Positions 18,602 to 59,212 of a DNA stretch of 64,000 nucleotides are shown piece after piece. Position 1 is the first letter of the stretch, and every line of letters begins with the position of its first letter. The stretch lies in assembly GCF_002127325.2 (NCBI RefSeq), contig NC_035439.2, positions 145,902,709 through 145,966,708 of the forward strand, in the 5' to 3' direction. The notes beneath the pieces were generated by a model. That model worked only from the letters and a program-made list of their open reading frames with translations. It was not told where the DNA came from and ran no database searches. The stretch is from Helianthus annuus (Eukaryota > Streptophyta > Magnoliopsida > Asterales > Asteraceae). Position numbers and translations under genes: made by a program.

Positions 18602-18769
18602 ATATAGTAATAACAAGCTTTGACTTGGTTGTAACACCATTTTCGTTATGTTTTTAATTGCAATAATAACCATACTTACTATTTCAAATCATACAATTAG
18701 ATTCATATCTAATATCATGTCATGGTAATCATGTATACATACACGCCTCTACTTCTTATATTAAATTAT
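18602..18769. repeat. Host tandem repeat, segment between two insertions
   Basis: It contains the unit markers CTTTGACTTGGTTGTAAC, TTTTTAATTGCAATAATA, ATTTCAAATCATACAATTAG and TAATATCATGTCATGGTAA. It directly follows the Mutator-like element and is cut at 18769 by E1, whose 5-bp duplication ATTAT is 18765-18769. Confidence 0.75.
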
Positions 18770-19477
18770 TGTTAATGCAATTCGGGTGATAAGTGCATGA
18801 CTCCCATGTTACCAATGGAATTGAAGATCTCAAGTTCAATCAAGGCCATGCACTGATCAAGGGGGAGTTTGTTAATGCACTTTTGGATGATAAGTGCAAG
18901 GCTTCCAACATCAAGGGTCTTTATTGAACATTGTCCAAAGTCTAGAAAGAGTTTATTCTAGAAAGAGTTTATGGGAAGAGTTTCTTCTAGAAGGAGTTTA
19001 TAGAAAGAGTTTATTTGGAAAGAGTTTATTTGGAAAGAGTTTATTTGGAAAGAGTTTAATTTGGACAGAGTTTATTTTAGAAAGAGTTTATAGCTAGACA
19101 GAGTTTATTTTAGAAAGAGTTTGTATAGTCTAGTTTTGTCTGAGTTTTGTAGAAAAACTCTGTGCTTGCTTTGTGCTTTGTCCGAGCTTTCTATTTGGTG
19201 TGGAAAGTCCGGGGTTCACCTTGTATATATACTTTAATATGGAATAGACAAGGTAACGATTTCTGTGTGAATTTCTGTGCCCTAATCATTGTGCTTTTTG
19301 TCTGGCGGCGCTTTGTGTGACGTCATTCATCTTCATCAAGAATACTCAGTGTATTCTTGATTTCTCTCTCAAATCCTTGCATTCTTGTGTTCATCTACAG
19401 TTGTTGATCATCAGGTGGATTCCGCACACCTTTTGGTTGCATTAGCTGAGTGAGATCTTGGATTAGGAGGCCTTACA
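18770..19477 (+). repeat. E1 5' LTR (708 bp)
   Basis: The LTR starts TGTTAATGCAATTCGG and ends GGAGGCCTTACA. U3 holds 13 copies of GAGTTT, mostly AAAGAGTTTAT, between about 18946 and 19150. A TATA box, TATATATA, lies at 19224-19231. The LTR also contains an internal copy of the polypurine tract and of its own start (TGTTAATGCAC at 18870), exactly 100 bp in. The short ORFs in it are by-products of the repeats. Confidence 0.93.
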
Positions 19478-19479
19478 AG

Positions 19480-19491
19480 TGGTATCAGAGC
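19480..19491 (+). other. E1 primer binding site (tRNA-Met)
   Basis: TGGTATCAGAGC, two bases after the LTR end. Confidence 0.92.
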
Positions 19492-20847: not shown

Positions 20848-23800
20848 ATGGCAAACAACAATCTGACTACGATGGTGCAAAGCCTCAAGCACAATGCTGA
20901 GGTAGGAAGTAACGACAAACCTCCTTTGTTGGTCAACGAACTTGATTTTCCTGAGTGGAAGGAGCGTTTTGAAAGATATGTTCGAGCAAAAGACATCAAA
21001 ATCTGGTTGTGCATCGTTAAAGGATGTGGTGCTACACCAATACGTACGTTGACGATTGATACGTATTTGGCTCTCACTGATGACCAGAAGAAGTTTTATG
21101 AATGTGAAGAGAAAGCTATGTCAATGATAACGATGGCAATGACACAATCGATACTTCATACGTTCCGCAAGAGAAATAACTCAAAGGAATTATGGGACAG
21201 TATGATCCAGCGATATGAAGGAAACGAAATGTACAAGAAACGACGTCTCGAACGTTTGAAGACTCAATTCGTTGTGTTCAAGGCTTTGAAGAATGAATCT
21301 TTTGATGACACAGTAAATCGATTTTATCATCTGCTGAGCGAACTTGATAGAAGTAAAGAGGGTATCTACACTGAATTCGAGAAGGTTGAGAAGTTTCTGA
21401 ATTGTCTTTCAAGAGAATGGAATATGTACACCGCTTTGATCAGAGAGGGTGTTCTCTACGAAGAGCTTTCATTGGAAGAAGTTGTTCAGAAGCTGAGGGG
21501 TTACGCTTGGAATATGGAAGATCAAGCATCCGATTTCGAGAAGATCCAAGATCCTCAGTTGTATAAGGCTTCGAAACCAACGGATAAGGGTAGTAATGGT
21601 GGTGTCGGTGTTGCTTTGTATTCAGAGAATGAAGGTCCTACAAGTGAACACGCCTTCATAAGCAACACTGTCAGTTCAAGTGGAACAACCAATTCAAATC
21701 AAGGGATGTACTCTTCTAGTGGCGCTCAGAAATCTCAAGGAACAAGTGTAAATATTCCTAAGATAGATGCAAGCGGTTTGAAGTTGATTGAAGAAAATAT
21801 GGGTTTGTTGGCGTCCTTTATGACTGCATACGAGAACTTCTGTCTTGGGAAACTCGTTGGACCGTCAAGTCTCGATGAAGACTTCGATCAGATAGATCAA
21901 GACGAGATGGAAGAACTTGATCTACAACTCAATATGGCATTGCTAGTCCGTAGAGCGAAGAAGTTTCTGCTGAAGACGGGTAGGAAGTTCATAGGGGGTC
22001 AGACAAAGACTCGAATGGGGGTCGACATGTCAAAGGTAAAGTGTTACAACTGTGGGATCTACGGGCATTTCGCACGTGATTGTCGAAAGCCGAAGATGGA
22101 AAGATCTGACAGAGATAACAACTCCCGAGGAAACAATTCAAGACCTCAAAACAATGCATCAAATGTTACCTCCAACTCAAGTGCTCGTTCAAGTGGGTCT
22201 GAAAATACCACACCTTCGACAAACAATGCTATGGTGGCTCAACCTTTACAGAATGTGACTGAGCCTTATGACTGGGGTTGTGCTTTGGAAGACATCTCAG
22301 GAGCTATTGTGTCACAAGCTTTTATAGCTGAAATTGTGAACGAAGAAGTGTATGAAGAGGTTATTGAAGATACAAGCATCGAGGAGCTTGCAGTTGTAGC
22401 TGAAGTTCTTGAGGAAGAGTTGGATTCGGGAAATGTTACTGAGAATGAAAGTCCTTCGATCGAAGAGACTGTTGAGAAGCCGAGCAAGACAGAAGATGGA
22501 GAAAAAGGTGAACGCTTTGAATTCAACATCTCCACAGCTGAAATGCAGCAATTTGCGGATGCAGAAGCTAAAAGGTTGGAAGAAAATTCCGTAGAAAACG
22601 AGGCTTGTGCATTCATGGCTGGCATTGAGGTAAAATCATCTTCTGTAGATAAGCGATGTGCTAGATGTGTTGAGTTTGTGACTAAGATTGACAGATATGC
22701 ACTTCATAACACAAACTTAATTGCAGATTTAGAAAAATCCAGAGAACTCATTGCGGTTTTGTCTAATTCGGATAAAGAACACCGAATTAAGATAAGAGCG
22801 CTGAAGAATGATATCTCTGAATTTGAGAGACTTGTGGCTAAGGGTAATCTTAGAAATCAAGAATTAAAATCTGAACTTGAAACAAGTCAAAATTCTGTTT
22901 TGGAAAAGAACAAAATCATTTTGGAAAAAGATAATCAGATTTTGGATTTGCAACGAAAGATTGAAAAATTCAGGGATTCATCTGAAGTGATGAATTTCTG
23001 TATTAACAGCCAACGTCTCAAAGAATCTGAGGAAGAAATGTTTGGCATTGGTTATACCAAGGTGCCTCCTCCGGTAAACCATAACTATACATCGATGCCA
23101 AGCATTGATCCTGAATTGGCAAACTTTGTGCCAACGACTCCTCTGACAGTTGAACCACAAAGTGAGTCAGAATCTGAGCCAGATGAAGTTACAGACTCAG
23201 ATCAGTCGAAGAAGAGTGGCTTGTCTAAGAAAAATGAAGTGAACCTTGAAAACATTGAAAATTTGATAAGCAACAAGATTTTGGAAATTTTCAATCAAGT
23301 TCAAAATGAAAAATCAAAACGTAAGTCACGTGGGAAAAACAAAAAGGCTTTGAAAAATGTCCCTAAAACAGAGTTTGTTAAAGGGGAGGATTTTACCAAA
23401 GAAGAAGTAAAAATTGAAACAGGTTCCAACTCACAGTTTGTGAACCAAATTTTGAAAAATCCCACCAATGCGTCTTCATCTTCGACCGATCATGAGGAAC
23501 GTCCGAAGAACGCTGCGAAAATTCGCAAATGCTACAAGTGTCGTGGGAAAGGACACTTAGCAGCAGACTGTCCAGATGACAGGGGTAAATCACTTGTTGA
23601 TCCTGATCAAAAGAAACCTTTTGTTGACAAACCTCAAAATGAATCAGTTAATGTTGAAAAGAAAAATGGTAAAAATCAAAAGGTTGAGAAAACCAAAGTG
23701 ATTAAACATGAAATAAAACCAGTTGTTAAACCAAATGTTAAATCACAACAAAATCAGGATCAAGAGGAGAAACCCGCTGTTAATAACCGTGGGGACAGAT

Positions 23801-24303
23801 CAGAAAACGTCCCTCAAAGACATGATACTCGTGAGAAAACCCCTCACAGACGACAAAATCATGTCACCTTTCAAGGCGTTGAGAATGACAAACGTTCTGG
23901 AGGTTCGAACAACAACTATGCTAGACCTCATGCACAGAACAGATTCGTGAATGATCGAAATGGGTCACCCCCCCGATTTCCAAATCAAAGACCGCATTCG
24001 GATAATCATCCACGATCATTCTCTAGACACGAAGATGCTCCTAGATTTGGTAGAAATTTTGAGTCACCCAGGAATCAAAATTACAATTACCAAAACTATG
24101 GAAGCCGAGGGTATGGAAACTCTGGTTATACCAACAGATCGTCAACTCCGTATAATCCACGATTTGCGGGGACTCATTCCAACAATTTCCGAAATGGAAA
24201 TGGTGGACACAGAGGCGATGATGGTTATTTCAAAGAGTTTTCTTATGTTGACGAATCAGGACGACCCAAGACCATCATGGCTTGGGTCCCACACTCTAAC
24301 TAA
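20848..24303 (+). CDS. gag: E1 Gag, long form (1151 aa)
   Basis: Gag forms the virus-like particle and binds the element RNA. The start ATG 20848 (MANNNLTTMVQ) is the first ATG of the frame; earlier in-frame codons are TTG. Residues about 20-230 form the Copia gag core (ELWDSMIQRYEG, RLERLKTQF, ESFDDTVNRFYHLL). A CCHC knuckle, CYNCGIYGHFARDC, starts at residue 399. Past residue 594 come a Glu/Lys-rich coiled-coil stretch, the block GIGYTKVPPPV, a second knuckle CYKCRGKGHLAADC (from 895), a basic Asn/Arg-rich tail and the end AWVPHSN. Residues 595-1151 lie in the candidate intron 22630-24323, so spliced RNA would contribute only residues 1-594. Length is far above the roughly 300-500 residues of ordinary Copia Gag. 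Confidence 0.9.
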   Translation: MANNNLTTMVQSLKHNAEVGSNDKPPLLVNELDFPEWKERFERYVRAKDIKIWLCIVKGCGATPIRTLTIDTYLALTDDQKKFYECEEKAMSMITMAMTQSILHTFRKRNNSKELWDSMIQRYEGNEMYKKRRLERLKTQFVVFKALKNESFDDTVNRFYHLLSELDRSKEGIYTEFEKVEKFLNCLSREWNMYTALIREGVLYEELSLEEVVQKLRGYAWNMEDQASDFEKIQDPQLYKASKPTDKGSNGGVGVALYSENEGPTSEHAFISNTVSSSGTTNSNQGMYSSSGAQKSQGTSVNIPKIDASGLKLIEENMGLLASFMTAYENFCLGKLVGPSSLDEDFDQIDQDEMEELDLQLNMALLVRRAKKFLLKTGRKFIGGQTKTRMGVDMSKVKCYNCGIYGHFARDCRKPKMERSDRDNNSRGNNSRPQNNASNVTSNSSARSSGSENTTPSTNNAMVAQPLQNVTEPYDWGCALEDISGAIVSQAFIAEIVNEEVYEEVIEDTSIEELAVVAEVLEEELDSGNVTENESPSIEETVEKPSKTEDGEKGERFEFNISTAEMQQFADAEAKRLEENSVENEACAFMAGIEVKSSSVDKRCARCVEFVTKIDRYALHNTNLIADLEKSRELIAVLSNSDKEHRIKIRALKNDISEFERLVAKGNLRNQELKSELETSQNSVLEKNKIILEKDNQILDLQRKIEKFRDSSEVMNFCINSQRLKESEEEMFGIGYTKVPPPVNHNYTSMPSIDPELANFVPTTPLTVEPQSESESEPDEVTDSDQSKKSGLSKKNEVNLENIENLISNKILEIFNQVQNEKSKRKSRGKNKKALKNVPKTEFVKGEDFTKEEVKIETGSNSQFVNQILKNPTNASSSSTDHEERPKNAAKIRKCYKCRGKGHLAADCPDDRGKSLVDPDQKKPFVDKPQNESVNVEKKNGKNQKVEKTKVIKHEIKPVVKPNVKSQQNQDQEEKPAVNNRGDRSENVPQRHDTREKTPHRRQNHVTFQGVENDKRSGGSNNNYARPHAQNRFVNDRNGSPPRFPNQRPHSDNHPRSFSRHEDAPRFGRNFESPRNQNYNYQNYGSRGYGNSGYTNRSSTPYNPRFAGTHSNNFRNGNGGHRGDDGYFKEFSYVDESGRPKTIMAWVPHSN

Positions 24304-24323
24304 ATTTTTGTTGGGGAGTGTAG
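22630..24323 (+). other. E1 candidate intron joining Gag to Pol
   Basis: The 5' site is GAG|GTAAAA (after 22629), 12 codons into a segment starting AFMA. A branch site CTAAC is at 24296-24300, overlapping the last gag codons, and the 3' site is TGTAG|GAG (AG at 24322-24323). Exon 1 from ATG 20848 is 1782 nt (594 codons) and pol is open from 24324, so splicing gives an in-frame 1724-residue Gag-Pol. E2 and E3 have the same arrangement. Splicing itself is inferred. Confidence 0.7.
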
Positions 24324-27300
24324 GAGCAGCTGAAGAGGGCTATCTATATTTGGTATATCGATAGTGGCTGTTCCAGACACATGACAGGAAATAAAGAGTT
24401 ACTGAACAATTTTAAACAAATTCGTGGTGGTTATGTGAACTTTGCCGGTGAAAAGGGTGGTTACATCACCGGTGAAGGCTCTATGTCCAATGGAAAAATC
24501 ACGCTGCATAAAGTGAACTACGTTGAAGAACTGAAGCATAACTTGATGTCGGTTTCTCAAATCTGTGATAACAAGTACACGATGCTGTTCACTGATAAAG
24601 CTTGCTTCGTATTGCGTCCGGGATTTGTTGTTCCTGAAGATTGGATCGTTATGAGGGCTCCAAGGGTGAATAACACATATGTCATGGACATGCGCCCGTT
24701 GGTTAACTCATCTGCTCCAGTGACTTGTCTACTTTCAAAGGCGACTGAAGATCAATCGTATCTCTGGCATAGGAGAATGGGCCACGTGCATCTGCGAAAA
24801 ATGAACCACTTAGTGAAAAACAACTTGGTGTTGGGGGTTCCTTTACGTAGTTTCAATATGCACAACAAATGTGAATCATGTGAAAAAGGAAAAATCAAAC
24901 GAAAGCCTCATAAACCGAAAACAGTTAACTCAATCCAAAAACCACTTGAGTTGCTTCACATGGATCTTTTCGGCCCAATCCATGTTGCTAGCATTGGTGG
25001 TATGTCTTATTGCTTAGTTGTCACTGACGATTTCTCACGTTACTCATGGGTATTTTTCTTAAAAACAAAGGATCAAACCGCTGGTATTTTAAGAGATTTA
25101 TTCAAACAACTTGAGAAAAATTATTCACTTCCTATTAAGAAAATCCGAAGTGACAACGGCACTGAGTTTAAAAATCAGTATATGGATGAGTTATGTCGGG
25201 AAATGGGAATAATTCATCAGTTCAGCGCTCCATATGTTCCTCAACAGAACGGAGTTGCAGAACGGAAGAATCGTACCCTAATTGAGGCGGCCCGCACTAT
25301 GCTTTCTGAATCAAAATTGCCAATTTTCTTCTGGGCCGAGGCGGTGAACACTGCATGTTATGTGTTAAATCATGTGCTTACTGTCAAAAGAGAAGATAAA
25401 ACTTGTTATGAATTACTTGAAAACAAGAAACCGAACCTTTCTGGTTTTCAGCCTTTTGGGATTAAGTGTGTTATCAAACGCACCAAAGATACTCCAAAAA
25501 TGGGGGAAGTTGGTGAAATTGGGTTCTTCTTGGGTTATGCCAATGGAACTCCAAACAAACGCGTTTATAACATCAAGAAACGAACAGTGGAGATCGTGTT
25601 TGATATAATTCCTTTGAGTTTCGATCCTCCACCGTCCGAATTCGGTCCCAAAAGCGGTTATGATTATGATAAATTATTTGATTCGTTTGATCTTCCTGAT
25701 GTTTCAGAAGAAGATTCGGAGGTTGTATACACACATCTTGTGAACCAAGATGAAGTGGATGCGAGCTGGAGAGCAAGTATTCCTACTAATGTGTCTTCGA
25801 ATGTTCCAGTCGCTGATTCTTCGTCCGTAAGTGATGTTGCTGCTGAGCAGATCCCCAATGCAGCTGCTCAAACTACAAGTGGAGATCTATACGTTGACTT
25901 TTCAGCATATCCAAATGTTGTTGCGTCTTCTGGTAATGGTGAAGCTTCTAGTAGTAATGCAAATGTTGAGGGGGAGATTCAATCGAATTTGGGAAACAAT
26001 CTTCAAGCTCCGGCAATCCCAGTTCCAAGAACAAATATTCATCATCCTGTTGATAATATTATTGGGAATCCAACTGCGGGAGTGCAAACGCGAAGGAGTA
26101 TTTCAGAAATGCAATGTTTATTCTCTGCTATCAAGAAAGAGGAAATCTACAATCTTAGCCTACATGAATGTTTTATCTCTCAGATAGAGCCGAAGAACTA
26201 TCAAATGGCTCTGAAGGATAATTCTTGGTGTGAGGCGATGCAAGAAGAGTTAGCTCAGTTCGACAAGTTAAAGGTGTGGAATTTGGTCGATCTTCCTAAG
26301 GGCCAGCATGCAATCAACACGAAATGGGTTTTCAAGTGCAAGAAGGACGATAAGGGTGTCGTCGTCAGAAACAAGGCACGGTTGGTTGTTCAAGGCTTCA
26401 ATCAGGAAGAAGGGATTGATTATACAGAAGTTTATGCACCGGTGGCAAGACTGGAAGCTATTCGTTTGTTTCTAGCCTTTGCTGCACACATGCGTATCAA
26501 AGTCTATCAGTTGGATGTGAAAAGCGCCTTCCTTTACGGGAAATTGCATGAAACTGTGTATGTGTCCCAACCGCCGGGTTTCGAAGCTCCAGGGTCAGAC
26601 AACAAGGTCTATTTGTTGGACAAGGCTCTCTATGGTCTCCATCAGGCCCCTCGAGCTTGGTACGAGACGTTGTCAAAGCATCTTTTGGAGCATGGGTTCT
26701 CGCGTGGTGCAATCGACTCCACACTGTTCATTTTGAAGAAAGGGGGAGACTTTCTGATCGTGCAAATTTACGTTGATGACATAATTTTTGGTTCTTCAAA
26801 TGAAGAGTTGTGTCGTGAGTTTGAGAAGGTGATGAAGTCAAAGTTTGAAATGAGCGCGATGGGCGAGTTATCATTTTTTCTAGGTCTTCAAGTGAGTCAA
26901 GAAAAAACCGGGACGTACGTGCACCAGACAAAGTATGTCCACGAGATTCTCAAAAGATTTGGATTGGAAGATAGCTTACCCTATGACACGCCTCTACCAA
27001 CAAATCTCAAGCTTTCACCCGATGATGAGAAAGATCCTGAAGTGGATCCGACTCTATATCGAGCAATGATAGGTTCATTGATGTATCTTACTGCTTCACG
27101 ACCAGATATTATGTTCTCTGTTTGTTTGTGTGCTAGGTACCAATCAACTCCGAAGGAATCGCACTTGAAAGCTGTCAAGCGTATTTTCAGATATCTGAAA
27201 GGAACGCCTAAGCTTGGATTGTGGTATCCAGCTGAAGGTGGTCTGGATTTGATGGCGTATGCTGACGCAGATTTCGGAGGGTGCCGGATGAACAGAAAGT

Positions 27301-27716
27301 CAACCTCTGGCGGCGCACAACTTCTTGGAAACCGTCTTGTCTCTTGGCAATGCAAAAAGCAAGTTGCCGTTTCTCTATCCACGTGCGAGGCCGAGTACAT
27401 TGCTGCTTCAAGCTGTTGTGCTCAGGTCTTGTGGATTCAGCAGCAAATGAGGGACTACGGTTTGAATTTTACTCGAACTCCTATCCTTGTTGATAATAAC
27501 TCTGCCATTTCCATAACAAACAATCCGGTAAATCACTCACGCACTAAGCACATAGATGTTAGGCATCACTTTATTCGCGACTGTGCTGAGAAGGGGTTGA
27601 TAGAAGTGGTTAGGGTAGACACCTTGGATAATCTTGCCGACCTGTTTACGAAAACATTCGATCGGGCTAGATTTGAAAATCTGGTCCGAATGATTGGCAT
27701 GATCAACCCAGAGTAA
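24324..27716 (+). CDS. pol: E1 Pol: protease, integrase, reverse transcriptase, RNase H
   Basis: Pol makes and inserts the DNA copy. The frame is open from 24324, right after TAG, to TAA 27716 (1130 codons); the first ATG (24381) lies inside the protease motif [10 protein letters not shown] (DSG at 24360), so it cannot be the true start. Counting from 24381, the integrase zinc finger ([15 protein letters not shown]) comes first. The catalytic triad is D195 (HMDLFGP), D258 (RSDNGTEF) and E294 (GVAERKN), the D,D-35-E spacing. RT has ARLVVQGF and YVDD at 797-800. RNase H has D962 (AYADADFGG), CEAEY and LVDNNSA. All key residues are present. Supply through splicing to gag exon 1 is the best explanation for the missing start. 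Confidence 0.93.
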
Positions 27717-29090: not shown

Positions 29091-29354
29091 ATCAGTGATT
29101 TCTAAAACGAAAGTGACGAAGGAGATTGCTAAGGTGCTGGATCTGATTTGGCTTGCAAACTTAAGGGGAGAACATCTGAAGAAGCTTCGACGCCTGCCTC
29201 TAAAATACAATGAAGAAGATCGTGTTCTAGCTGACCAGTCCATCAAGGTGGTTCAGTTCTGTGTGAAGAACAAGGTCTGGGCAGGAAGCAGCTCTCGAAG
29301 AAAGGATGAAGATCTCAAGTCCAATGAAGACCATGCACTGATCAAGGGGGAGTT

Positions 29355-30062
29355 TGTTAATGCAATTCGGGTGATAAGTGCATGACTCCCATGTTACCAA
29401 TGGAATTGAAGATCTCAAGTTCAATCAAGGCCATGCACTGATCAAGGGGGAGTTTGTTAATGCACTTTTGGATGATAAGTGCAAGGCTTCCAACATCAAG
29501 GGTCTTTATTGAACATTGTCCAAAGTCTAGAAAGAGTTTATTCTAGAAAGAGTTTATGGGAAGAGTTTCTTCTAGAAGGAGTTTATAGAAAGAGTTTATT
29601 TGGAAAGAGTTTATTTGGAAAGAGTTTATTTGGAAAGAGTTTAATTTGGACAGAGTTTATTTTAGAAAGAGTTTATAGCTAGACAGAGTTTATTTTAGAA
29701 AGAGTTTGTATAGTCTAGTTTTGTCTGAGTTTTGTAGAAAAACTCTGTGCTTGCTTTGTGCTTTGTCCGAGCTTTCTATTTGGTGTGGAAAGTCCGGGGT
29801 TCACCTTGTATATATACTTTAATATGGAATAGACAAGGTAACGATTTCTGTGTGAATTTCTGTGCCCTAATCATTGTGCTTTTTGTCTGGCGGCGCTTTG
29901 TGTGACGTCATTCATCTTCATCAAGAATACTCAGTGTATTCTTGATTTCTCTCTCAAATCCTTGCATTCTTGTGTTCATCTACAGTTGTTGATCATCAGG
30001 TGGATTCCGCACACCTTTTGGTTGCATTAGCTGAGTGAGATCTTGGATTAGGAGGCCTTACA
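29355..30062 (+). repeat. E1 3' LTR (708 bp)
   Basis: It is indistinguishable by eye from the 5' LTR, including the 13 GAGTTT motifs and TATA box (offset 10,585). It is preceded by the polypurine tract CAAGGGGGAGTT and followed by ATTAT (30063-30067). Confidence 0.92.
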
Positions 30063-30084
30063 ATTATTACCCATTTATATATAT

Positions 30085-33624: not shown

Positions 33625-33645
33625 ATATATATATATATATATATA

Positions 33646-34036
33646 GGGAGCCGCTAGAATGAGAACCACCTTGAGTTGTAAGAACCGCGAGAACTACACC
33701 CCACGGAGGGGCGTTCGCCGCGATTTTTTTTACAAGTAGATGTGTGCATTATAAACACGGCCGTAAAAAATCACGGCGAACGCCCCTCCGTGGGGTGTAG
33801 TTTTTTACACCTCAAGTTTGGTGAAAAAAAAAGAAAAAAGAAAAAAAATTAAAAAACACCAAACTTGAGGTGTAAAAAACTACACCCCACGGAGGGGCGT
33901 TCGCCGTGATTTTTTACGGCCGTGTTTATAATGCACACATCTACTTGTAAAAAAAAAATCGCGGCGAACGCCCCTCCGTGGGGTGTAGTTCTCGCGGTTC
34001 TTACAACTCGAGGTGGTTCTCATTCTAGCGGTCCCC
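33646..34036. mobile_element. Foldback (palindromic) MITE, 391 bp
   Basis: The whole element is a near-perfect hairpin: GCCGCTAGAATGAGAACC at the left is mirrored by GGTTCTCATTCTAGCGG at the right, with arms of about 185 bp around an A-rich centre (33820-33865). The block CACGGAGGGGCGTTCGCCG occurs four times, twice in each orientation. Both ends abut TA repeats. Confidence 0.85.
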
Positions 34037-34056
34037 TATATATATACATATATATA

Positions 34057-34694
34057 TGTTGGTGCACTTGTGTCTGTACTTTGTCTGTATTCGGTCACGA
34101 TGTAAACGATGTCCTGATTAGTGTTGTAAGTTGACCAAGTCAACCATCCTCCGGTTTGACTTGGACAACATTTGATAAATGTTGAAAGATGTTCTGTCTC
34201 GAAGGATAAGAGATCGAAGGATGATGTGGATCCTTCGATCTCATCGAAAGATATGCTTCGAATGGTTAGACCTCGAAAGGTGATCTTTCGAGGTCCCTGC
34301 TGATCGTTCGAGTGACTTGTTATCGATAGATGATCCTTCGGACCATCTATCGGATCCTTCGGACTGGACATCATGGGCTGGGTATAAATACCCATGCAGT
34401 GTATGTGTTAGATAGACTTAGACAGATTCACACAGAGACTTTCGAGAGAGCTTGAGAGCATTCTGTCCAGAAAACACACACACACTTTGAGAGTTTACAA
34501 GTTAGATTTGTAAACATTGTGCTTGTAACCGAAACCTTCATTTGCATTAATACATTGGTGTTAATCGGTGAACCCTTGTGTGTTGTGTTTATACTTGCTT
34601 AATCTCGGTTTGCTTGCTAGCTTGGATTCCGCACTCGCTAGTGGGTTAGTATAACAAGGTTTGAGGTTCGTCATCCTCCGACAAGGGACCTACA
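34057..34694 (+). repeat. E2 left LTR (638 bp)
   Basis: It starts TGTTGGTGCACTTGTG and ends GGGACCTACA. U3 carries many CCTTCGA and CTTTCGA motifs. The TATA box sits in GGGTATAAATACCC (34380-34393), whose arms are inverted repeats. Confidence 0.92.
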
Positions 34695-35440: not shown

Positions 35441-35482
35441 TCTTTCGGATTATTCACTTGGCATTTATTTTGCTTATCAATC

Positions 35483-38400
35483 ATGAATCCGAGTTGGTGG
35501 AATCCTGCCCCAGACAGTGGAAAATATACCAGTTCTGGTGTCACTCCCTCATGGTGGGGTACACCGGCGCCAGACAGTGGAAAATACACGTCTACAAGTC
35601 TATCGCCTTCATGGGCCGAGTCTCCGGTATCGACATCTTCTCAGGGAAATCAGTGGGCGTTAGTCTCGAATCAAACTCCTAGTATCCAAAGTATCTTACT
35701 GAGCGAAAGCGAAACAGGAAGTTTGAATCGACCTCCAAAGCTGATGCATTTAAACGAGTATCCGGGATGGGCTGATAGATTCCGTACATATGTTTTGGGT
35801 CAAAATACAGAGCTGTGGATACGTTTCACCACAGACTTTGATCAAGCTATCGAGGTCGCTGCTTCAACAACTGCTAGTTTTGCCGATCTTCCAGAAGATC
35901 AAAAGAAAATATATGATCTGGAAAAGAAAGCCTACGCCATTCTCACTCAGGCGTTAAGCAAAGACATTTATCATCAGTTTGTCAGCTTCAAGACTACAAA
36001 GAAGCTGTGGGACGGTTTGAAAACCAGAGGAGTAGGGAATGAAGCAACACGCCAATTGCGTCATGATCTGCTCAAGAAAGAATTCGACTGTTTCACATGT
36101 TTAGATAAGGAGTCTTTGGGAGACATGACAAGTCGGTTTTATCATTTGCTTACTGAGCTGAATAATTTTGGTGTGACGACAACTCAAGCAGAAGTGGTGA
36201 AAAAGTTTGCTGATGCTTTGCCTCCCCAATGGAGTAGTTTCTTGGAAATCCTGAAGTATAACGGAGTGTTGAAAACTACAAATATCAACGACTTCGTGCA
36301 GCTTTTGGAAAACAAGGATCAGGAGGAAACATTAAAGGCGAAGAGAGTTCCATTGCCACAAAATCCTGAAATGTATTGTGGAACTTCCAATACTTCGTCT
36401 GCAAGAACAGGTCCACATGCTCCCCTGCAAACGGCTTTTGTCACAAGTACAGATATGTATGGCAATCCGGTGCAAGTTCCTGTAAAGCCACCTCCTACCA
36501 CAGATATGTATGGAAATCCAATACAACCACCTCCTCCTCCGCCTCCTGCTCAACAACAACGTGCATGTTATGGAGGAACATCATCTGCTGGTCAACAATC
36601 AAAGTCAAGTACCGTACAGCTCGACACGTCAAGCTTCTCTAAAATCAGTGTAGAAGTAGCTAAGGAACACATGGAGCTGCTTAACACTGTAGTGAGCGCG
36701 TACTGTGGGTTGATAAAAGGTCAGATTGGCAATATTAATCTGACACAAGAAGACTACCGGCAGATTGATATAGAAGAGATGGACTTGATGGATATCAAGT
36801 GGGCCTTTGCGAGTGCTGTGAGAAGAGCAAAGGATTGGATGGAAAGTACTGGAAGAACCAGCTTGGAAAGTAAGAGAGACACCAAGTATGGGTTCGATAA
36901 ACAAGCTGTTAAGTGCTTCAACTGTGGTGAACGGGGTCACTTTAAGAGGGAATGTACAAAGCCAGCCCAGCACGGGAATCAAAACCCCTTCAGAAACCAA
37001 GGCAACCAGCAGAACAGAAACAATGAGCGTACATTGGTGCCTGTCAACAACCAAACCAACCGGGCACTTGCAGTTCAGGTGGATGAAGGTTGTGACTGGT
37101 CAATCCAGTTGGGTGGTGATGCTCCTGATGGAACAGCATGTTTTGCTCAGATTGTAAACGAGCTAGTTCACACCAGTGGTGGAGAATCTTCTGCCAGTGG
37201 TGGTGAATCGTCTGAAGATGAAGATTCGTCTGGATACAGTTGGAGTGTTGATGAAGAATCATCCAATTCTGGTGATGATCATGTGGGTGAGACGTCAAAT
37301 GTTTCGGTTGATGTTGACTTTGATGAGCTTTTGGAGGAAGCTGCAGCAGAAACTCAAAGAAGATCTATTTTGGTGGATCAAGCCGCTTATACTTCGTCTT
37401 CTCTCCATTCAGCCTTTATGGCTAATGTCGACGGTTCATCAAGTCAGGTATGTGTCGATGAACCCACTGCTATTAACTGTGATGAATGTGATAGATTGCA
37501 TGCTAGGTGTGCTAACTTAGAAGGAAACATGTCTGAGTTGCAAGCCAAACATGAGTTGCAAGCCAAACATGATGCTTTACAAGCTAGTTTGTTTGACTTG
37601 CAAGACAAACATAGTTCCTTGAGTGCTGAGTGGTGTGACTTGCAAAGCAAGCATGAGGCTTTGCAAGAGAAATATGATGTGACATTCATCCACAATCAGA
37701 AGTTGACTGTGGATCTCTCAAAATGCACAGAAGCCAACATGTTTTATGAAAACCATGAAAAAGAATTTAAGTCAGTAATTGAGACCTTAAAGAAAGATAA
37801 AACTGAACTGACAAAAATGGTTTCAAGAAAACAAACTGATATTAATTTGTATATATCTCGCCTGGAGATTATGCAAAAAGAAATGGCTTGTGTGAAAACA
37901 GAAAGCGATGCGATCCAGCTTAAGCTAGACAGTTATTTGAGCTCTAGCTATGTGTTGGATCACATCATTGATGTTCAGAAGGAAAAGAGGGATGTCACAT
38001 GCATTGGCTACAAGAAATGTCCACCACCGGTTAGACACAATTATGATGCCATGCCTGATGAAGAGGACAGGGTGTTCTTTGAACCTTCTGTGCCTCTAGA
38101 TGTTAAGGAGTTTGCTGCAGGACTCGGATACCAAAAGGAAGTATCCTCAGATTCAGATGTGTCAGCAGATACATTTGTAAGTGCTGAACAGAATCAAGAT
38201 CCTCCAGTTGTGATTGAGGATGCTGATTCTTCTGATGATGAATCTGATGATACTATCCCAGCAAAGTCTGATGCGGTAGCCAAGAATGAGGACATACCTC
38301 TCGAGAATCACATTCTATGTGATCCCCCTGTGAAGTCCGCTAAGACTATTGCAACTGAGTCCTCATCTGCAGAAGAGCCGGAGAGTGTGAATTTGCTGTA

Positions 38401-39327
38401 CACTCTAGTTGGTGATGATAAAATTTACTCAGACAAAGATTTTCCCATTAAGTATGTTAATCAATCCTTAATCTGTAAAGTCTTTGAAAATTCAACAAGT
38501 AAGTTTTTAGGAAAGGCAGGACCACGTGTTACAGTTACACAGTGTCTTCCTATTCCAAAGGCTGAAATTCGAAAACAATTTGGCAACAAGAATTTACAAC
38601 AGTGCCAAAACAGCAAAATCACACCAAGCCCAAAGGAAAATCACCGGCTCAAGTCCAAAAGAAGCCGGATCAAAAGAAGAAGAAAAACGTTAACTTTGTG
38701 AAATCGACGGGAACGGATAAAATTGAAACGTTTGAAAATAAATCTAACTTAGATTTTGTCAAGAAAGCTACGGTTTTGAAAAGAAATGAACAAGACAGTT
38801 CAAAGCCTAGTACCTCGGGTTCACAAAGTTCAACATCATCGGCTAGACGATCACATGATTCTTCGGGGTTTGTTGAACGAAGATCATGTTTTGAGTGTGG
38901 AACCATTGGGCATATAATTCGAAATTGCCCATATCTTCATAAACAAAAAGAAAAGGTTGATGATCCCCGTGGCAAGAATGACCGTAAGCCATCTGTTTCC
39001 ACAAAACAAGATCCCCGACTTGTAAAAGAAAGGGAAAAGAAACAGAAACGCCAACAGGTCAAGAAGATTGAAAAAGCAATTAAAATCGATGTGGTTCAAA
39101 AACAATCTGTTGCTGTAAAACCAGACAATTCTAAAACTTCAAACAATCAAGAAGTTAAAACTTTAAAGAAAGACACTGGTAAGACAAAACAGACCTGGAA
39201 ACCTAAATCGGTTACTGAATCAGGGGGACCATCACAATTCACCAACCATCAAAGACAAGAAGTTATTGTCATTGATGAAAATGGAAGACCCAAGACCACA
39301 ATGGCTTGGGTCCCCATCTCCAACTAA
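35483..39327 (+). CDS. gag: E2 Gag, long form, with a frameshift near 38600
   Basis: The ATG 35483 (MNPSWWNPAPDSGKY) starts the frame. The gag core lies at residues about 75-290 (KKLWDGLKTRG, MTSRFYHLLTELN), a Pro/Gln-rich linker follows, and a CCHC knuckle CFNCGERGHFKREC begins at residue 478. Exon 1 in the splicing model ends at residue 655 (37447). Beyond it are Leu-rich repeats (LQAKHELQAKHDALQ), the block CIGYKKCPPPV, a second knuckle CFECGTIGHIIRNC and the end AWVPISN. The first frame stops at 38701; the homologous frame resumes at about 38602, so one base was lost near 38600. That break lies inside the candidate intron and would spare Gag-Pol while truncating long Gag. Confidence 0.87.
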
Positions 39328-39348
39328 TTCATTTGAGTTCATGTGCAG
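37448..39348 (+). other. E2 candidate intron joining Gag to Pol
   Basis: The 5' site CAG|GTATGT (after 37447) matches the consensus closely and is 655 codons from ATG 35483. The branch site CTAAT (39324-39328) overlaps the gag stop. The 3' site is TGCAG|GGT (AG at 39347-39348), and pol is open from 39349 in frame. The product would be 1799 residues. Confidence 0.72.
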
Positions 39349-42300
39349 GGTGCTTCAGGAGGAACTGTCAGTAGTCATTGGATTGTTGATAGTGGAGCAT
39401 CCAGGCACATGACAGGCGACATGAAGCTTCTCTACGACGTTAAATCTATTAGAGGAGGTTATGTTGCTTTTGCTGGAGATAAAGGTGGATATATAACGGG
39501 AGAAGGAATGATATCCAACGGGATTGTCAGCTTTGACAAGATCAACTTTGTGCAACAACTTGATCACAATCTTCTTAGTGTTTCTCAAATTTGTGACAAG
39601 CAATTTTCAGTACACTTTGATGCTAATGGATGTTATGTGCTGAAACCCGGCTTCAAAATTCCAAAAGAATGGATTCTCTTGTCAGCTCCAAGGATAAATG
39701 ATTTGTATGTCCTTGACATGAGCCAAGCTATTACTACGTCTGCACAAGCAACTTGTTTCGTTTCCAAAGCCACAGAAAAAGACACTATCTCTTGGCACAG
39801 ACGAATGGGTCACATTCACTTACGCAAAATGAATCATTTGGTTTCAAATGAATTGGTGAATGGTGTTCCTCTCAAAAATTTCCATCTTCAAGACGTCTGT
39901 GTTTCGTGCCAGAAAGGAAAGCAAACAAAGAAGAAGCACCCTACAAAGAAGATCAACACGGTGGCAGTTCCTCTTGAACGTTTGCACATGGATTTGTTCG
40001 GTCCTGTCAAGCACAAGAGTATTCGGGGTGATCAATACTGTCTCGTGATAACTGATGATTATTCAAGATTTTCTTGGGTAGCGTTCATGGCACACAAGAG
40101 TGAAACCTTTGGCATTATCAAAAACTTGATCATTCAGATTGAGAATTTGTATAAGTTGAAGGTTAGGCGGATACGTAGCGACAATGGTACTGAATTTAAA
40201 AATCATTCCATGGCGGAGTTCTGCACTTCAAAGGGTATTCTTCATGAGTTTAGTGCAGCTTATACTCCTCAACAGAATGGCGTCGCTGAACGTAAGAACC
40301 GCACATTGATCGAGACTGCTAGGACAATGTTGGTAGAGTCGCAGTTGCCCATTCCATTCTGGACTGAAGCTGTGGCCTCTGCATGTTACACATTGAACCG
40401 AGTCCTTACAGTCAAAAGGCACAACAAGACCTGCTTTGAGCTTCTTCAAAAACGGAAACCAGATTTGTCTTATCTTGAACCGTTTGGAGCTCCATGCACA
40501 ATCATCGATCCTAATGGAAAGTTTGGGGCAAAAGCAATTGATGGATACTTTCTTGGGTATGCCACCCCTAACTTACGAGTCTGGAATTTAGAGACTAAAA
40601 GGGTCGAGGAATGGTCTGAGGTCAGAGTACAACGGCACACTTTACCAGTCAAAAATCCGGGCCAACCTTGGATGTTTGAGTACGATGACTTTTTCAATTC
40701 GATCAATGTTGAAGCCGTTGAAGAAAATGCTGCGGCTAGGATGTTTTTCGAGAGTGACAATGCAACAGTTTCACCGGTGGTTCGTCCGATTCTTGTTAAT
40801 CAAGAACCATCGTCTTCGTTGAACAATAATACTCTCAACAATGAGGATTTTCATGATGCAAACGAATTGAATGAATCTTCAGAGGATGATGAATTTCTAG
40901 ATGCAGATCAAGAAGCCCCAACAACAGCAGTTCATGGTACTTCAGAGGGTACTCCTCCAGTAGATGCCCATAGAACAGCTGAGGCTACTGCATCATCCTC
41001 TTCGTCAATTCCGGGCCTTGAATTGGTTGTTGATCTTAATTTGAACAACCTGGGTATAAATGTTCCAGTTCCATATAATCCAGAAACAAGGATTCATAAT
41101 ACCCATCCTCAACAAAACATCATTGGAAATGTGCAAAGTGGCGTTCAAACAAGAAACATGTTGCGAAACAACAACAATGCAGGCTTGTATGCAGCTATTC
41201 GAGAATCCGGGCAACAAAACGATTGGTCCTTCGCGTGCTATGTCTCACAAGAAGAACCAAGAACTTGGAAAGAAGCCTTGAAAGATAACGCTTGGGTTGA
41301 AGCAATGAAGGAAGAACTGCAACAATTCCAGAAGCTGGGTGTCTGGAAACTCGTAGAGAAACCTGCTAGATACAAGAAGATTGGTACCCGTTGGGTTTTC
41401 AAATGCAAAAAGGATGACCGTGGAGTTGTTATCCGAAACAAAGCACGTTTAGTCGTTCAAGGTTTTCGTCAGATTGAAGGGATCGACTACAACGAAGTGT
41501 ATGCACCAGTGGCACGTCTCGAAGCAATTCGAATCTTTCTAGCCTATGTGTCCTTCAAAGGATTCAAGGTTTATCAGATGGACGTGAAAAGTGCATTTTT
41601 ACATGGTGTGGTTGAAGAAGAGGTATATGTCGAACAACCTCCAGGTTTTGAAGATCCTATCCATCCCGATCGGGTTTGGTTGCTCAACAAAGCTCTCTAT
41701 GGTCTTCATCAAGCACCGCGAGCTTGGTATGCAACCTTATCTCACTATCTGCTGGAGAACGGTTTTCGTAGAGGTCTTATCGACTGTACCCTTTTCATCA
41801 AAGAACAAGATGGAGATCTTCTTCTGGTACAGGTATACGTTGATGATATTATTTTTGGTTCTACTAATGATGTCTTGTGTAGGGAATTCGAGCGCATTAT
41901 GCAGGATAAATTCGAGATGAGTGCTTTGGGGGAAATGACTTTCTTCTTGGGCCTACAAGTACAACAAACTGAGTCTGGGATATTCATCCATCAGACTAAA
42001 TATGTTGGCGACATCTTGAGCCGGATCCAGATGTCTGATGCAACGCCCATTGGTACCCCATTGCCAACTAATCACGGAATTACTCCAGATTTGAAGGGAG
42101 AAGCTGTTAGTCCTTCAAACTACCGCGCTATGATCGGATCTCTTATGTACCTCACAGCATCAAGGCCAGACATAATGTACCCAACGTGCCTGCTTGCCAG
42201 ATATCAAGTTAACCCGAAGGCCTCACATCTTGCAGCTGTCAAAAGGATTTTTCGTTATTTGAAGGCGTACCCTGACACCGGTCTGTGGTACCCTAGGGAT

Positions 42301-42783
42301 AATAACTTTGAATTGGTAGCTTTCAGTGATTCTGATTTTGGCGGATGCAAAATCGACGGTAAATCCACAACGGCTGGATGTCAGTTTTTAGGAAATCGCC
42401 TAGTCACATGGCAGTGCAAGAAGCAGACGTGTGTCGCTACATCAACATGCGAAGCTGAATACATTGCTGCCTCAAGTTGTTGCTCCCAAGTTCTTTGGAT
42501 TCAACAACAAATGCGGGACTACGGTTTTGAATTCCTAACTACTCCTATTTACGTTGATAATTCTGCTGCTTTAGATATCACTAGAAATCCTGTGCAGCAT
42601 TCGAAGACCAAACACATCGAAATTAAATATCACTTCATACGTGATTGCTTTGAGAAAAGGCTAATCGATGTTGTTAAGGTCCACACCGATGACCAACGTG
42701 CCGACTTATTTACCAAAGCATTTGACAAATCAAGATTTGACTTTTTATTATTGGTAAACGGCATTAAGGTCAAGCAAGAGTAA
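39349..42783 (+). CDS. pol: E2 Pol: protease, integrase, reverse transcriptase, RNase H
   Basis: The frame is open to TAA 42783 without a near ATG; the only upstream start-like codon is GTG 39343, which overlaps the proposed 3' splice site. Domain order: protease [11 protein letters not shown] at the N-terminus, integrase zinc finger ([15 protein letters not shown]), integrase core ([22 protein letters not shown]), an acidic Ser-rich linker, RT ([17 protein letters not shown]) and RNase H ([20 protein letters not shown]). All catalytic residues are present. It shares the C-terminal end GIKVKQE with E3 and E4. Confidence 0.93.
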
Positions 42784-53844: not shown

Positions 53845-53905
53845 TATCCGGGTGTCAAGTTCGTCTCTCTGCTGTACGGAATTACTGACCTGTTCACGGA
53901 CTTGC

Positions 53906-55467: not shown

Positions 55468-58400
55468 ATGAGCTGTACAAGTCCATGGGATTGGAGTTTG
55501 GACTCACGAAACAATCAAGAGTTAGTGACTGCTGCAGATTGGGCAAAAAGTATGGTTCCACAGCCATCAATCAGTCCAAGTCAATGGGCTTTGGTATCCA
55601 ATCAAAGTCAAAGTCTTCAGAACCTTCTGATTAGTGAGAGTGAAACTGGCAGCAACAATCGCCCACCCAAGTTGAACCATATGAACGATTTTCCATCATG
55701 GAAAAACCGTTTTCACACATATGTCCAAGGGCAAAGCACTGATCTTTGGACGTGTTTCATCAATGCGTTCAATACTAATCTTGAAACTGCTGCGTCAACT
55801 TCAGAGGGTTATGCAAATATGCTTGAAAATGACAAGAAGGCTTATGAATTGGAGAAAAAGGCCTTTGCCACACTTACTCAAGCACTCAACAAAGACATCT
55901 ACCATCAGTTCTCATATTGCAAGACCACGAAAGCATTGTGGGATGCCTTAGTTGCTAGAGGAGAAGGCAATGCAGCTGCTCGAAAATCTCTGCATGATCT
56001 GTTGAAGAAAGAGTTTGAATCCTTTCAGTTTTTGGAAAACGAGACTCTGAATGATATGATCACACGTTTCTATCATTTGATTAGTGAGATGTGTGCTTAT
56101 GGAGTTGTCGCTACTCAACAAGAAATGGTGAGTAGATTTGCTGACGCCTTACCTCCAAAGTGGAGTTCCTTCATTGAATTGTTGAAGCATACTGGAACTC
56201 TAGATCAAGTCAACATCTATGAGTTCATTCAAAAGCTGGAACATAAGAATGATGAAGAGATTAGGAAAGCAAGGCGTGCTCCAGCTCCTCAGAATACGGA
56301 AATGTATCTTCCAGGATTCGATGTTTTGGCAAGATCAGCTGCAGCTCAGCAACAGCAACCTAAGCTGCAGACTGCATTTGTGTCCAATACAAGTTCAAGT
56401 TCCTTTCCGTTTCCTCAGTCAACAGCTGCTCCACCACAACCTCAATTCGATCCGAGGTCCTATATTCCTGTTCCAACTCAGCCACAACCACAACCTCAAC
56501 AACAACAACAGCAAGCTCACTATACAAGCAATTCTCAACCTCAACCCCAAAGTCATCACACAATCCGAGTCGACAACTCAAATCTGTCACACCTTAGCAT
56601 TGAAGTCGCTAAGGAACATATGGAGATTATCAACACCATGGTCAGTGCATACTGTGGTTTGGTAGCAGGTCAGCTTGGAAACATCAACATGACCAATGAA
56701 GATTATGATCAGATCGACAAGGAAGAAATGGAGTTGATGGATATTAAATGGGCTTTTGCTAGTGCGGTTAGAAGGGCGAAAGATTTCATGGCACGAACTG
56801 GAAGAACTTCGTTGGAAGGAAAGAAAAACACGAAGTATGGGTTTGATATTAATGCCGTCACGTGCTTTAATTGTGGCGAGAAAGGGCACTTTAAACGTGA
56901 GTGCACTCGACCAACAAAACACGGCAATCACAACCCTTTCAGAAACCAGACAAATGTGAATGCCCAACAAGAAAACCGTGAGAGGAGGATGGTGGCAGTG
57001 AACAACAATCAGGGACAGCCTGGAACTACCAATCACAATCGGGCTTTGGCTGTTCAAGCTGATGAAGGATGTGACTGGTCAGTTCAGTTTGGTGAAGGTG
57101 ATCAGGGAAGTGGCACTGCACTGTATGCTAAGGTCATCGAGCAGGTTCAAAAAGAAGAATCTTCTGGAAGCGATGACAGTTCTGGTTATTCTGGCAGTTC
57201 GGATGAAGAAGGCTCTGTTTCTGGGGATAATCACTCAGAGCCTGATGAGGAGGAAGAAAGTGAAGATATTCAGGATCTTCTGAATGAAGCTGACGAGCTT
57301 AAATGTCAGAAATCAATTCTGATTAGGAAGGCTGCTGCTACATCAACGGAAATGGAAAAGCTATTTTCTGAAGATGGAGCTTTTTCTTTTCAATCAGCCT
57401 TTATGGCAAACGGCTCAGCCTCTACTAGTCAGGTAACTTCTGAACCTCCTGCTCCTATTATCTGTAAATCATGTGCAGAGATGAAGCTTGAATCAGAAAA
57501 GCTTCATAGTCATAACCAGAATTTGGTTATTGAACTTTCGAAATGCAAAGAGGCAAACATGGCTTTAACCCGGAATGAAAAAGAATTTAAATCTGTAATA
57601 GAAACTTTAAAGAAAAATGTGTCCGAGGTTAACAAAGTAGTTTACCACAAGCAAGTGAGTATAAATGAATATATTAACACTGTGGAAGAAACTAAAAAGC
57701 AATTAGCCATTGCCCAATGCGAACATGATGCGATCAAACAGAAATTGGATAGTTATTCTAACTCACGATTTGTGCTTGATCACATCATCGACGTTCAACA
57801 ACTAAAGGGAAATCAGAAAGGCATAGGGTATAACAAATGTCCGCCCCCCTTGATGAACAACTATACCAAGATGCCTGATGAGGAAGAAATGCCTCGGTAT
57901 GAACCCAGTGTGCCTCTTGATGTTGAGGAGTTTACTACTGGCCTTGGGTTCAAACCGGACAATTCTTCAAACACAGCCTCTAAGGAACAAGAAACTTCAC
58001 CATCCATGAAGCAAAGTCCTCCAATTATCGAGGACTATGAGACATCGGATGATGAATCAGATGTGGCTGTAAGTGATCAGGATAAATCACTTAGCAAGAT
58101 GAAAGGAGTAGATATTCCACGAGAGAATCACATCCTTTGTGATCCTGATACTCCTGAGGTTCCATCTGTTGAGAAGCAAGTGATTGATCCTGTCAAGGTT
58201 GATAAGACAGGTGTGTCTACTGTTAAAAGCAGTAATGTGTTGTACACTTTGGTTGGAGATAATAAAATCTACTCAGATCATGTTTTTCCAATTAAAAATG
58301 TAAATAAATCTTTGATTGACAAAGTCTTTGAAGACAATACAAACAAATTTTTGGGAAAAACACTTCCAGGAATTGTGGTAACACAATGTGATCCAATTCC

Positions 58401-59190
58401 TAAGGCTGAGATTAGGAAACAATTTGGTAATCAAAAATCTCCAACCACTCGACAACCTACTGCTTCTAAGGGTAAACAACCACAACGAGCTCCAAAGCCA
58501 AAGGCTAAAGTTGAATCAAAAGGAGCTCGTTACATGAAGAAAGGAAAAGATGTTAAGTTTGTAGCATCAAAAGGTACAGATAAAATTGAGACTTTTGAAA
58601 ACAAATCAAACACTGATTTTGTACAACAAGTCAAGATTTTGAAAAGAAACAGTGATAACAATTACACCCAACACACAAACGGGTGTGATGAAAGAGCAAG
58701 TACCTCAGGTTCTACAGGCTCAACATCTGGTAGTCGATCAAGTTCTCCTAAATCTGTTGAAAGGAGAACTTGTTTCAAATGTGGAGAAATTGGGCACATT
58801 ATCAGAAACTGCCCCAATGCTCCAAAGAAGAAATTTGTTGAGAAAACTCCACCTGAAACAGTTCACCCTCAACGTCGATCAGTTTCACCTAAACAAGATA
58901 AACGAACGGTAAAAGAACAAGAAACTAAACAACGACGTAAAAACATAAAAACTGTTGAAAAAGCTTTAAAATCTGAAGTTAAAACAGTGCAAAAGGAACC
59001 AATTGTGTCACAACCTGTAAAACCAGAATCTTCAAAAACTGGTAGGCACAGACAAACTTGGTTACCTAAGTCGGGTGACAATTCAGGGGGAGCAGTTGTT
59101 CTTGAAAACCATCAAGAGATAGAGCTTACGTATCGTGATGCCAAGGGACGACCCAAGACCACTAAGGCTTGGGTCCCCATTCTCAACTGA
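55468..59190 (+). CDS. gag: E3 Gag, long form (1240 aa)
   Basis: The start is ATG 55468 (MSCTSPWDWSLDSRN); the frame upstream begins only with TTG. The gag core spans residues about 70-290 (KALWDALVARGEGN, MITRFYHLISEM). A Gln/Pro-rich linker precedes the CCHC knuckle [14 protein letters not shown] at residue 466. The exon-1 part ends at residue 655 after SAFMANGSASTSQ. The intron-encoded part has a predicted coiled coil (CKEANMALTRNEKEFKSVIE and following), GIGYNKCPPPL, the block HIIDVQQ, a second knuckle CFKCGEIGHIIRNC from residue 1102, a Lys/Arg/Ser-rich tail and AWVPILN. The frame is intact over its full length. Confidence 0.9.
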   Translation: MSCTSPWDWSLDSRNNQELVTAADWAKSMVPQPSISPSQWALVSNQSQSLQNLLISESETGSNNRPPKLNHMNDFPSWKNRFHTYVQGQSTDLWTCFINAFNTNLETAASTSEGYANMLENDKKAYELEKKAFATLTQALNKDIYHQFSYCKTTKALWDALVARGEGNAAARKSLHDLLKKEFESFQFLENETLNDMITRFYHLISEMCAYGVVATQQEMVSRFADALPPKWSSFIELLKHTGTLDQVNIYEFIQKLEHKNDEEIRKARRAPAPQNTEMYLPGFDVLARSAAAQQQQPKLQTAFVSNTSSSSFPFPQSTAAPPQPQFDPRSYIPVPTQPQPQPQQQQQQAHYTSNSQPQPQSHHTIRVDNSNLSHLSIEVAKEHMEIINTMVSAYCGLVAGQLGNINMTNEDYDQIDKEEMELMDIKWAFASAVRRAKDFMARTGRTSLEGKKNTKYGFDINAVTCFNCGEKGHFKRECTRPTKHGNHNPFRNQTNVNAQQENRERRMVAVNNNQGQPGTTNHNRALAVQADEGCDWSVQFGEGDQGSGTALYAKVIEQVQKEESSGSDDSSGYSGSSDEEGSVSGDNHSEPDEEEESEDIQDLLNEADELKCQKSILIRKAAATSTEMEKLFSEDGAFSFQSAFMANGSASTSQVTSEPPAPIICKSCAEMKLESEKLHSHNQNLVIELSKCKEANMALTRNEKEFKSVIETLKKNVSEVNKVVYHKQVSINEYINTVEETKKQLAIAQCEHDAIKQKLDSYSNSRFVLDHIIDVQQLKGNQKGIGYNKCPPPLMNNYTKMPDEEEMPRYEPSVPLDVEEFTTGLGFKPDNSSNTASKEQETSPSMKQSPPIIEDYETSDDESDVAVSDQDKSLSKMKGVDIPRENHILCDPDTPEVPSVEKQVIDPVKVDKTGVSTVKSSNVLYTLVGDNKIYSDHVFPIKNVNKSLIDKVFEDNTNKFLGKTLPGIVVTQCDPIPKAEIRKQFGNQKSPTTRQPTASKGKQPQRAPKPKAKVESKGARYMKKGKDVKFVASKGTDKIETFENKSNTDFVQQVKILKRNSDNNYTQHTNGCDERASTSGSTGSTSGSRSSSPKSVERRTCFKCGEIGHIIRNCPNAPKKKFVEKTPPETVHPQRRSVSPKQDKRTVKEQETKQRRKNIKTVEKALKSEVKTVQKEPIVSQPVKPESSKTGRHRQTWLPKSGDNSGGAVVLENHQEIELTYRDAKGRPKTTKAWVPILN

Positions 59191-59212
59191 TGTGTTTAAT
59201 TGACATGTGCAG
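57433..59212 (+). other. E3 candidate intron joining Gag to Pol
   Basis: The 5' site CAG|GTAACT follows 57432, 655 codons from the ATG, the same count as E2. The branch site CTGAT (59187-59191) includes the gag stop TGA. The 3' site is TGCAG|GAT (AG at 59211-59212) and pol is open in frame from 59213. The product would be 1801 residues. Confidence 0.72.

Follow-up and report, generated by a model that had tools for sequence, protein, structure and literature searches.

Analysis of a 64,000-nucleotide stretch of the sunflower Helianthus annuus genome (contig NC_035439.2 of assembly GCF_002127325.2, positions 145,902,709 to 145,966,708 of the forward strand; hereafter the window) suggested that three retrotransposons within it may produce their Gag-Pol polyprotein by splicing out a coding intron. 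The elements, designated E1, E2, and E3, look like Sirevirus-like members of the Ty1/copia group. Under the proposed mechanism, unspliced RNA would be translated into a long Gag comprising capsid, two zinc knuckles, and an extra C-terminal third, and the host spliceosome would remove 1.7-1.9 kb from some transcripts, between a donor that follows an AFMA motif and an AG immediately upstream of the protease, such that the spliced RNA would encode a shortened Gag continuing in frame into Pol. This intron would be the last third of gag and hence itself coding; a CTRAY branch point would overlap or abut the gag stop codon, and the adjoining hairpin may tune splicing. A probability of about 0.6 was assigned to Gag-Pol production through exactly this donor and the pol acceptor in the three elements, and splicing into the pol acceptor is likely when other donors are counted as well. 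An earlier note on this DNA had claimed that spliced RNA gives Gag-Pol; the claim was retained in part, as the best explanation on sequence-based grounds, with good sequence and conservation support for the donor.

The gag-pol boundary and candidate splice sites

The gag and pol genes did not overlap in any of the three elements, and the Pol frame opened only after the gag end. The gag stop was separated from the protease Asp codon by 56, 60, and 61 nt in E1, E2, and E3, respectively (phases 2, 0, and 1), and in every case the Pol frame carried a further stop, downstream of the gag stop and ahead of the acceptor (Table 1), ruling out a single frameshift or a single readthrough as the route to Pol. 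Frameshifting by -1 or +1 fails in E1 and E3 because overlapping frames are needed, and readthrough fails in E2 because a second stop is met. The earlier statement that no one frameshift or readthrough rule serves all three elements was therefore upheld, the intervening stops adding to the varying gaps on which it had been based. Initiation of Pol at its own ATG was also rejected, since in the E1 Pol frame no ATG occurs until 24381, past the Asp codon (24360), and none precedes Asp in E2 or E3, in agreement with the claim that pol lacks a usable start.

The donors, acceptors, coordinates, stop distances, and phases reported previously were re-derived from the sequence and proved correct. From gag ATGs at 20848, 35483, and 55468, exon 1 would end at 22629, 37447, and 57432 (594, 655, and 655 codons; donor phase 0), and exon 2 would start at 24324, 39349, and 59213, which places the acceptor 36, 39, and 39 nt upstream of the codon for the protease Asp. 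By simple arithmetic, the joins of 22629 to 24324, 37447 to 39349, and 57432 to 59213 bring Gag in frame with Pol in all three elements, as had been asserted. Splice sites were scored with matrices of approximate plant frequencies. By matrix score, the donor ranked second of 185, first of 227, and first of 188 among all gag GT sites in E1, E2, and E3 (the E2 range extending past its frameshift), and the acceptor ranked second of 33, first of 40, and first of 40 among AGs within 300 nt, and, when only AGs as far as the Asp codon were considered, first of 7, 7, and 6. Other phase-0 gag donors scoring above the proposed one were absent from E2 and E3, and a single one was found in E1, at 22035, exceeding it narrowly. 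Across the 24 Val columns common to E2 and E3 (E2 up to its frameshift) the donor ranked first, with a score of 9.4 vs. 4.3 for the next. The donor codons were NAG/GTA in all three elements (a slash marks the exon-intron boundary), with chances of 0.049, 0.075, and 0.056 given the residues, which are not three independent tests because E2 and E3 are related.

At the gag end, a 26-nt hairpin, GACCCAAG...CUUGGGUC, stood shortly before the gag stop in all three elements, corresponding by its presence to the boundary repeat of Sireviruses; the hairpin regions folded modestly better than shuffled sequences (z of -2.2, -0.9, and -2.1). The C-terminal residue of Gag was Asn in 32 of 33 models ending in the AWVP motif (the window's two included), which fits AAC before TAA or TGA and so a CTRAY-like sequence over or beside the stop, from which use as a branch point may be inferred.

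The segment proposed as an intron also behaved as coding sequence. Rough ratios of nonsynonymous to synonymous differences (pN/pS) between E2 and E3, with gag synonymous sites near saturation, were 0.40 for exon 1, 0.43 and 0.50 for two parts of the intron, and 0.18 for pol, indicating purifying selection on the intron part as on the remainder of gag. The unspliced product thus seems to be used too, and a long Gag seemingly kept by selection is what would be expected if unspliced RNA makes it. The second zinc knuckle lay inside the proposed intron in E1 and E3.

Donor conservation and gene models in relatives

As a phase-0 GT amounts to a Val codon, protein models can be used to test the donor GT. 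The Helianthus E2/E3-type set comprised 85 gag models, representatives of 90%-identity clusters, one of which was the window's E3. The residue after the donor was Val, hence GT, in 70 of the 85, and a plain substitution was found in none of the other 15: 12 resumed, in the manner expected of splicing at this point, with text located 5-580 residues further on in Val-bearing models (at most 2 mismatches in 10), including 4 at the proposed pol junction, and three (P0085, P0088, and P0090) resumed with unmatched sequence. Among E1-type models, Val was present in 6 of 7 (one being the window's own), and the seventh, P0127, carried the proposed junction. The next four residues agreed in only 41-45% of 69 Helianthus models selected for donor Val. 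Immediately before the donor stood Q in 83/85 Helianthus models, E in 7/7 of the E1 type, and K in 30/30 from Smallanthus; these suit NAG, since only these three residues can be encoded by it. The Smallanthus set (n = 30) held Val in 20 models (one of them, P0137, a jump) and a further 7 that jumped at the donor.

Smallanthus, Tanacetum, and Centaurea proteins showed a Val preceded by Q, E, or K in the corresponding interval in 60 of 63 rows (4 duplicates; the misses were P0154, P0162, and P0232), and the LMA-type ones among them, retrieved with a search pattern that requires Val, had E before it in 39/40 and K in 1/40. This pattern in the three genera is only suggestive support for the donor. 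Of the 8 Tanacetum-type models extending over the start of pol, none joined from the equivalent site, and a scan of viral contigs for DNA of relatives found none. Separately, the public models P0090 (labelled protein kinase) and P0088 left gag at the donor and continued into the unmatched sequence, possibly an element exon fused to other sequence.

The exact proposed junction occurred in five gene models, namely P0034, P0035, and P0036 from H. annuus, P0045 from H. debilis, and P0127, an E1-type model from H. annuus. Agreement among models was greater for the acceptor than for the donor. Their use as proof of the junction was rejected, as several donors were used.

Competing routes to Pol

A number of observations weigh against the proposed junctions. 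The junctions are predicted from the DNA sequence, and the gene models that carry them are themselves predictions. In a plain count of matches to AG/GTAAGT, the GT sites as good or better (donor included) numbered 8 of 185, 2 of 227, and 1 of 188 in E1, E2, and E3, so that the donors of E2 and E3 stand out by this measure and that of E1 does not. The claim of donors at homologous positions was firm for E2 and E3 only; the E1 donor falls in the same AFMA-to-CxxC interval and appears roughly homologous, its Val being placed 5 columns off the E2/E3 Val in an unanchored three-way alignment. The 15 E3-type models covering the pol start divided into 4 with the proposed donor, 7 with a donor at the AWVP codons (TGG/GTCCC), 3 with another donor, and 1 (P0009) with another acceptor, most using other donors, and many models joined the proposed donor to acceptors inside gag rather than to pol. 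Pol was reached from the equivalent donor in 0 of 16 Smallanthus models, all 16 using other donors, and Ile or Leu replaced the donor Val in 3/30 (P0129, P0154, and P0162). About 5 of the 70 Val-bearing Helianthus models (P0046, P0071, P0074, P0091, and P0096) may, as judged by eye, contain jumps or deletions themselves, the text that follows their Val being located further on in relatives. The frameshift of the long E2 gag near 38,600 falls within the proposed intron, exon 1 and the Pol frame being open. Finally, typical plant introns are U-rich (PMC3735527), whereas the proposed one was A-rich, with a T fraction of 0.25 against 0.25-0.29 for exon 1 and pol, a composition that speaks for splicing that is weak and regulated, or else against any splicing.

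The published proposal for Sireviruses with out-of-frame pol is ribosome bypassing or internal entry on unspliced RNA (PMC2829016), here presumably at the gag-end hairpin, which all three elements possess. This route was considered improbable for the window's elements: the gap varies in length and phase, while the open Pol frame starts at or just before a strong AG/G; the hairpins are only modestly better than their shuffles; and the donor is left unexplained. By eye, the stretch from the gag stop to Asp contained no Pol-frame Asn codon matching the AAC before the stop in E1 or E2, and E3 has two Pol-frame AAT codons there, one of them before the Pol-frame stop, an argument weakened by the fact that bypassing need not use matched codons. 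An equally unlikely alternative is that Gag-Pol arises by splicing to the same acceptor from a different donor, for example near the gag end, by which the second zinc knuckle would be kept. It draws on the 10 of 15 E3-type models that reach the acceptor from other donors and on all the Smallanthus models covering the pol start. Against it, the commonest Helianthus alternative at the AWVP codons leaves an intron of 38-40 nt, below the usual plant minimum, and gene finders favour short introns; moreover, the proposed donor is outscored by no phase-0 gag donor in E2 or E3, and only narrowly in E1.

The least probable of the readings weighed takes Q/E/K-Val as a protein motif, e.g., for binding light chain 8 (LC8), with the splice site coincidental or serving a short Gag isoform. 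LC8 motifs can contain Q-V and want Q. Sirevirus Gag interacts with LC8 (PMC2829016), and several models splice from the proposed donor to sites inside gag. However, Q, E, and K interchange between families, which suits NAG/GT better than such a motif, the codon choice is NAG/GTA in all three elements, and the pol acceptor constitutes independent support for splicing. Splicing from the proposed donor to the pol acceptor was preferred.

Element structure and relation to known retrotransposons

All three Pols contained the Pfam domains gag_pre-integrs, rve, and RVT_2 in this sequence, the Ty1/copia order with integrase before reverse transcriptase (RT) that Sireviruses share. The gag was large (Table 1) and carried a CCHC zinc knuckle, zf-CCHC being detected in E2 exon 1 as well, and the long Gag of E1 and E3 combined a Pfam copia gag with two zinc knuckles. 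Sireviruses feature a coiled coil downstream of the knuckle, and a heptad-like sequence was noticed by eye only. The primer site TGGTATCAGAGC, taken here to match tRNA-Met and counted as the primer type of Sireviruses, was located at 19480, 34697, and 54559 in E1, E2, and E3. Between pol and the 3' long terminal repeat (LTR), no plus-strand open reading frame (ORF) of at least 150 aa was found in E1 or E2, and E3 is cut by the window end; an extra (ENV-like) ORF after pol occurs in 74% of SIRE elements and is hence no strict requirement (PMC6317226). E1 was clearly more divergent from E2 and E3 than these from each other, and its Gag retrieved its own small set of close relatives. Among the 120 of 121 matches listed for E3 Gag, all came from Helianthus (H. 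annuus, H. debilis, and H. anomalus) except for one from Smallanthus, with identity up to 98%.

Table 1. Features of the three elements, in window coordinates; splice-site sequences are given with a slash at the boundary.
Feature	Coordinates	Strand	Remarks
E1 5' LTR	18769..19478	+	BLAST match, 710 bp, 100% identical to 29354-30063
E1 3' LTR	29354..30063	+	BLAST match
E1 long Gag ORF	20848..24303	+	1151 aa, ending AWVPHSN then stop
E1 Pol frame (integrase, RT)	24324..27716	+	no ATG before protease Asp; last in-frame stop upstream TAG 24321
E1 proposed coding intron	22630..24323	+	GAG/GTAAAA ... TGTAG/G; same junction in gene model P0127
E1 candidate branch point CTAAC	24296..24300	+	adjoins gag stop
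E1 gag-end hairpin	24263..24288	+	
E2 gag region	35483..39327	+	frame broken near 38,600; ORFs 35399-38701 and 38602-39327
E2 Pol frame	39349..42783	+	last in-frame stop upstream TGA 39334
E2 proposed coding intron	37448..39348	+	CAG/GTATGT ... TGCAG/G
E2 candidate branch point CTAAT	39324..39328	+	overlaps gag stop codon
E2 gag-end hairpin	39287..39312	+	
E3 long Gag ORF	55468..59190	+	1240 aa, ending AWVPILN then stop
E3 Pol frame	59213..62653	+	last in-frame stop upstream TGA 59201
E3 proposed coding intron	57433..59212	+	CAG/GTAACT ... TGCAG/G; equivalent junction in models P0034, P0035, P0036, and P0045
E3 candidate branch point CTGAT	59187..59191	+	overlaps gag stop codon
E3 gag-end hairpin	59150..59175	+	

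The identical 710-bp LTRs of E1, together with a 5-bp target duplication (ATTAT, by eye), mark it as a recent insertion. The matching ends of E2 were identical over 1001 bp, a stretch extending past the primer site at both ends, so that a piece of another copy is involved; as the downstream copy (44630-45630) holds a primer site (45270) and approximately 360 bp of leader, the E2 3' LTR is followed by a piece of a second element. Large near-perfect inverted repeats (33625-34057) directly preceded the E2 5' LTR. No 3' LTR of E3 was found within the window. A pol 3' fragment (50798-53905), 97% identical to E3 over 2.8 kb, abutted the start of the E3 5' LTR, which suggests that E3 sits inside or next to a relative. 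Elsewhere in the window, a minus-strand frame with Ty3 capsid, protease, and RT domains (3-2114) ran off the edge, a zf-RVT domain (Pfam) at 47099-47911 was probably a fragment of a non-LTR element, and a TATG tandem repeat of about 120 copies (48363-48843) contained ORFs of 160-193 aa that are probably repeat artefacts.

In foamy viruses, Pol is translated from a spliced RNA without Gag and from its own start. The sunflower elements would share the dependence of Pol on spliced RNA but, unlike foamy viruses, lack an ATG upstream of the protease Asp. In Ogre elements of Ty3/gypsy, the full polyprotein can be translated once an intron has been excised from some of the transcripts (PMC6317226), such that the claim of novelty in the earlier note was too strong. 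Splicing would likewise yield a polyprotein in the sunflower elements; unlike these, Ogre has the gypsy order and its intron follows the protease, between PROT and RT, in a region averaging 274 bp, whereas the intron proposed here in Copia-order elements precedes the protease, spans 1.7-1.9 kb, and codes for the Gag C-terminus. Alternative splicing determines how much Gag is made relative to Pol in the Copia elements EVD, BARE1, and Drosophila copia, in which the spliced RNA encodes Gag only (PMC3735527, PMC12786077), unlike the Gag-Pol that spliced RNA would encode here by an in-frame join in all three elements. Spliced Ty1/copia transcripts of the sunflower elements Tyran and Varan were detected by direct RNA sequencing (Kirov 2020; PMC7730604), and differ in being short truncated-Gag isoforms, the highly expressed Copia elements of that study belonging to Ale, Ivana, and Tork and not to SIRE.

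Closest in anatomy are the Sireviruses (SIRE/Maximus), which have Copia order, a large gag with a zinc knuckle, pol out of frame with gag, and a conserved inverted repeat where the two genes meet (PMC2829016). The passages on Sireviruses in that source propose internal entry or bypassing and make no mention of splice sites at pol. The literature searched, mostly at the level of titles and abstracts, contained no report of a Copia lineage that produces Gag-Pol by splicing. The splicing logic is thus already known in Ty3/gypsy and the anatomy in Sireviruses, and their union with a large coding intron in Copia would be new.

A wider generalization is offered tentatively, at somewhat less than even odds: in Sireviruses of the daisy family whose gag and pol do not overlap, and perhaps in Sireviruses generally, Pol would be obtained by splicing out a coding intron formed by the last third of Gag, with the gag stop in the branch point and the hairpin controlling splicing instead of directing recoding. 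Maximus/SIRE elements are estimated at 6.72% of the H. annuus genome (PMC5563062), and in maize the Sireviruses OPIE-2 and PREM-2 reach very high abundance (PMC2829016). The splicing model names exact junctions. If true, it would answer how Sireviruses with out-of-frame pol make their enzymes, a question left at internal entry or bypassing (PMC2829016), would place a coding intron among the mechanisms that govern the proportion of Gag to Pol, and would turn host splicing into a step at which a highly successful group of plant elements is controlled.

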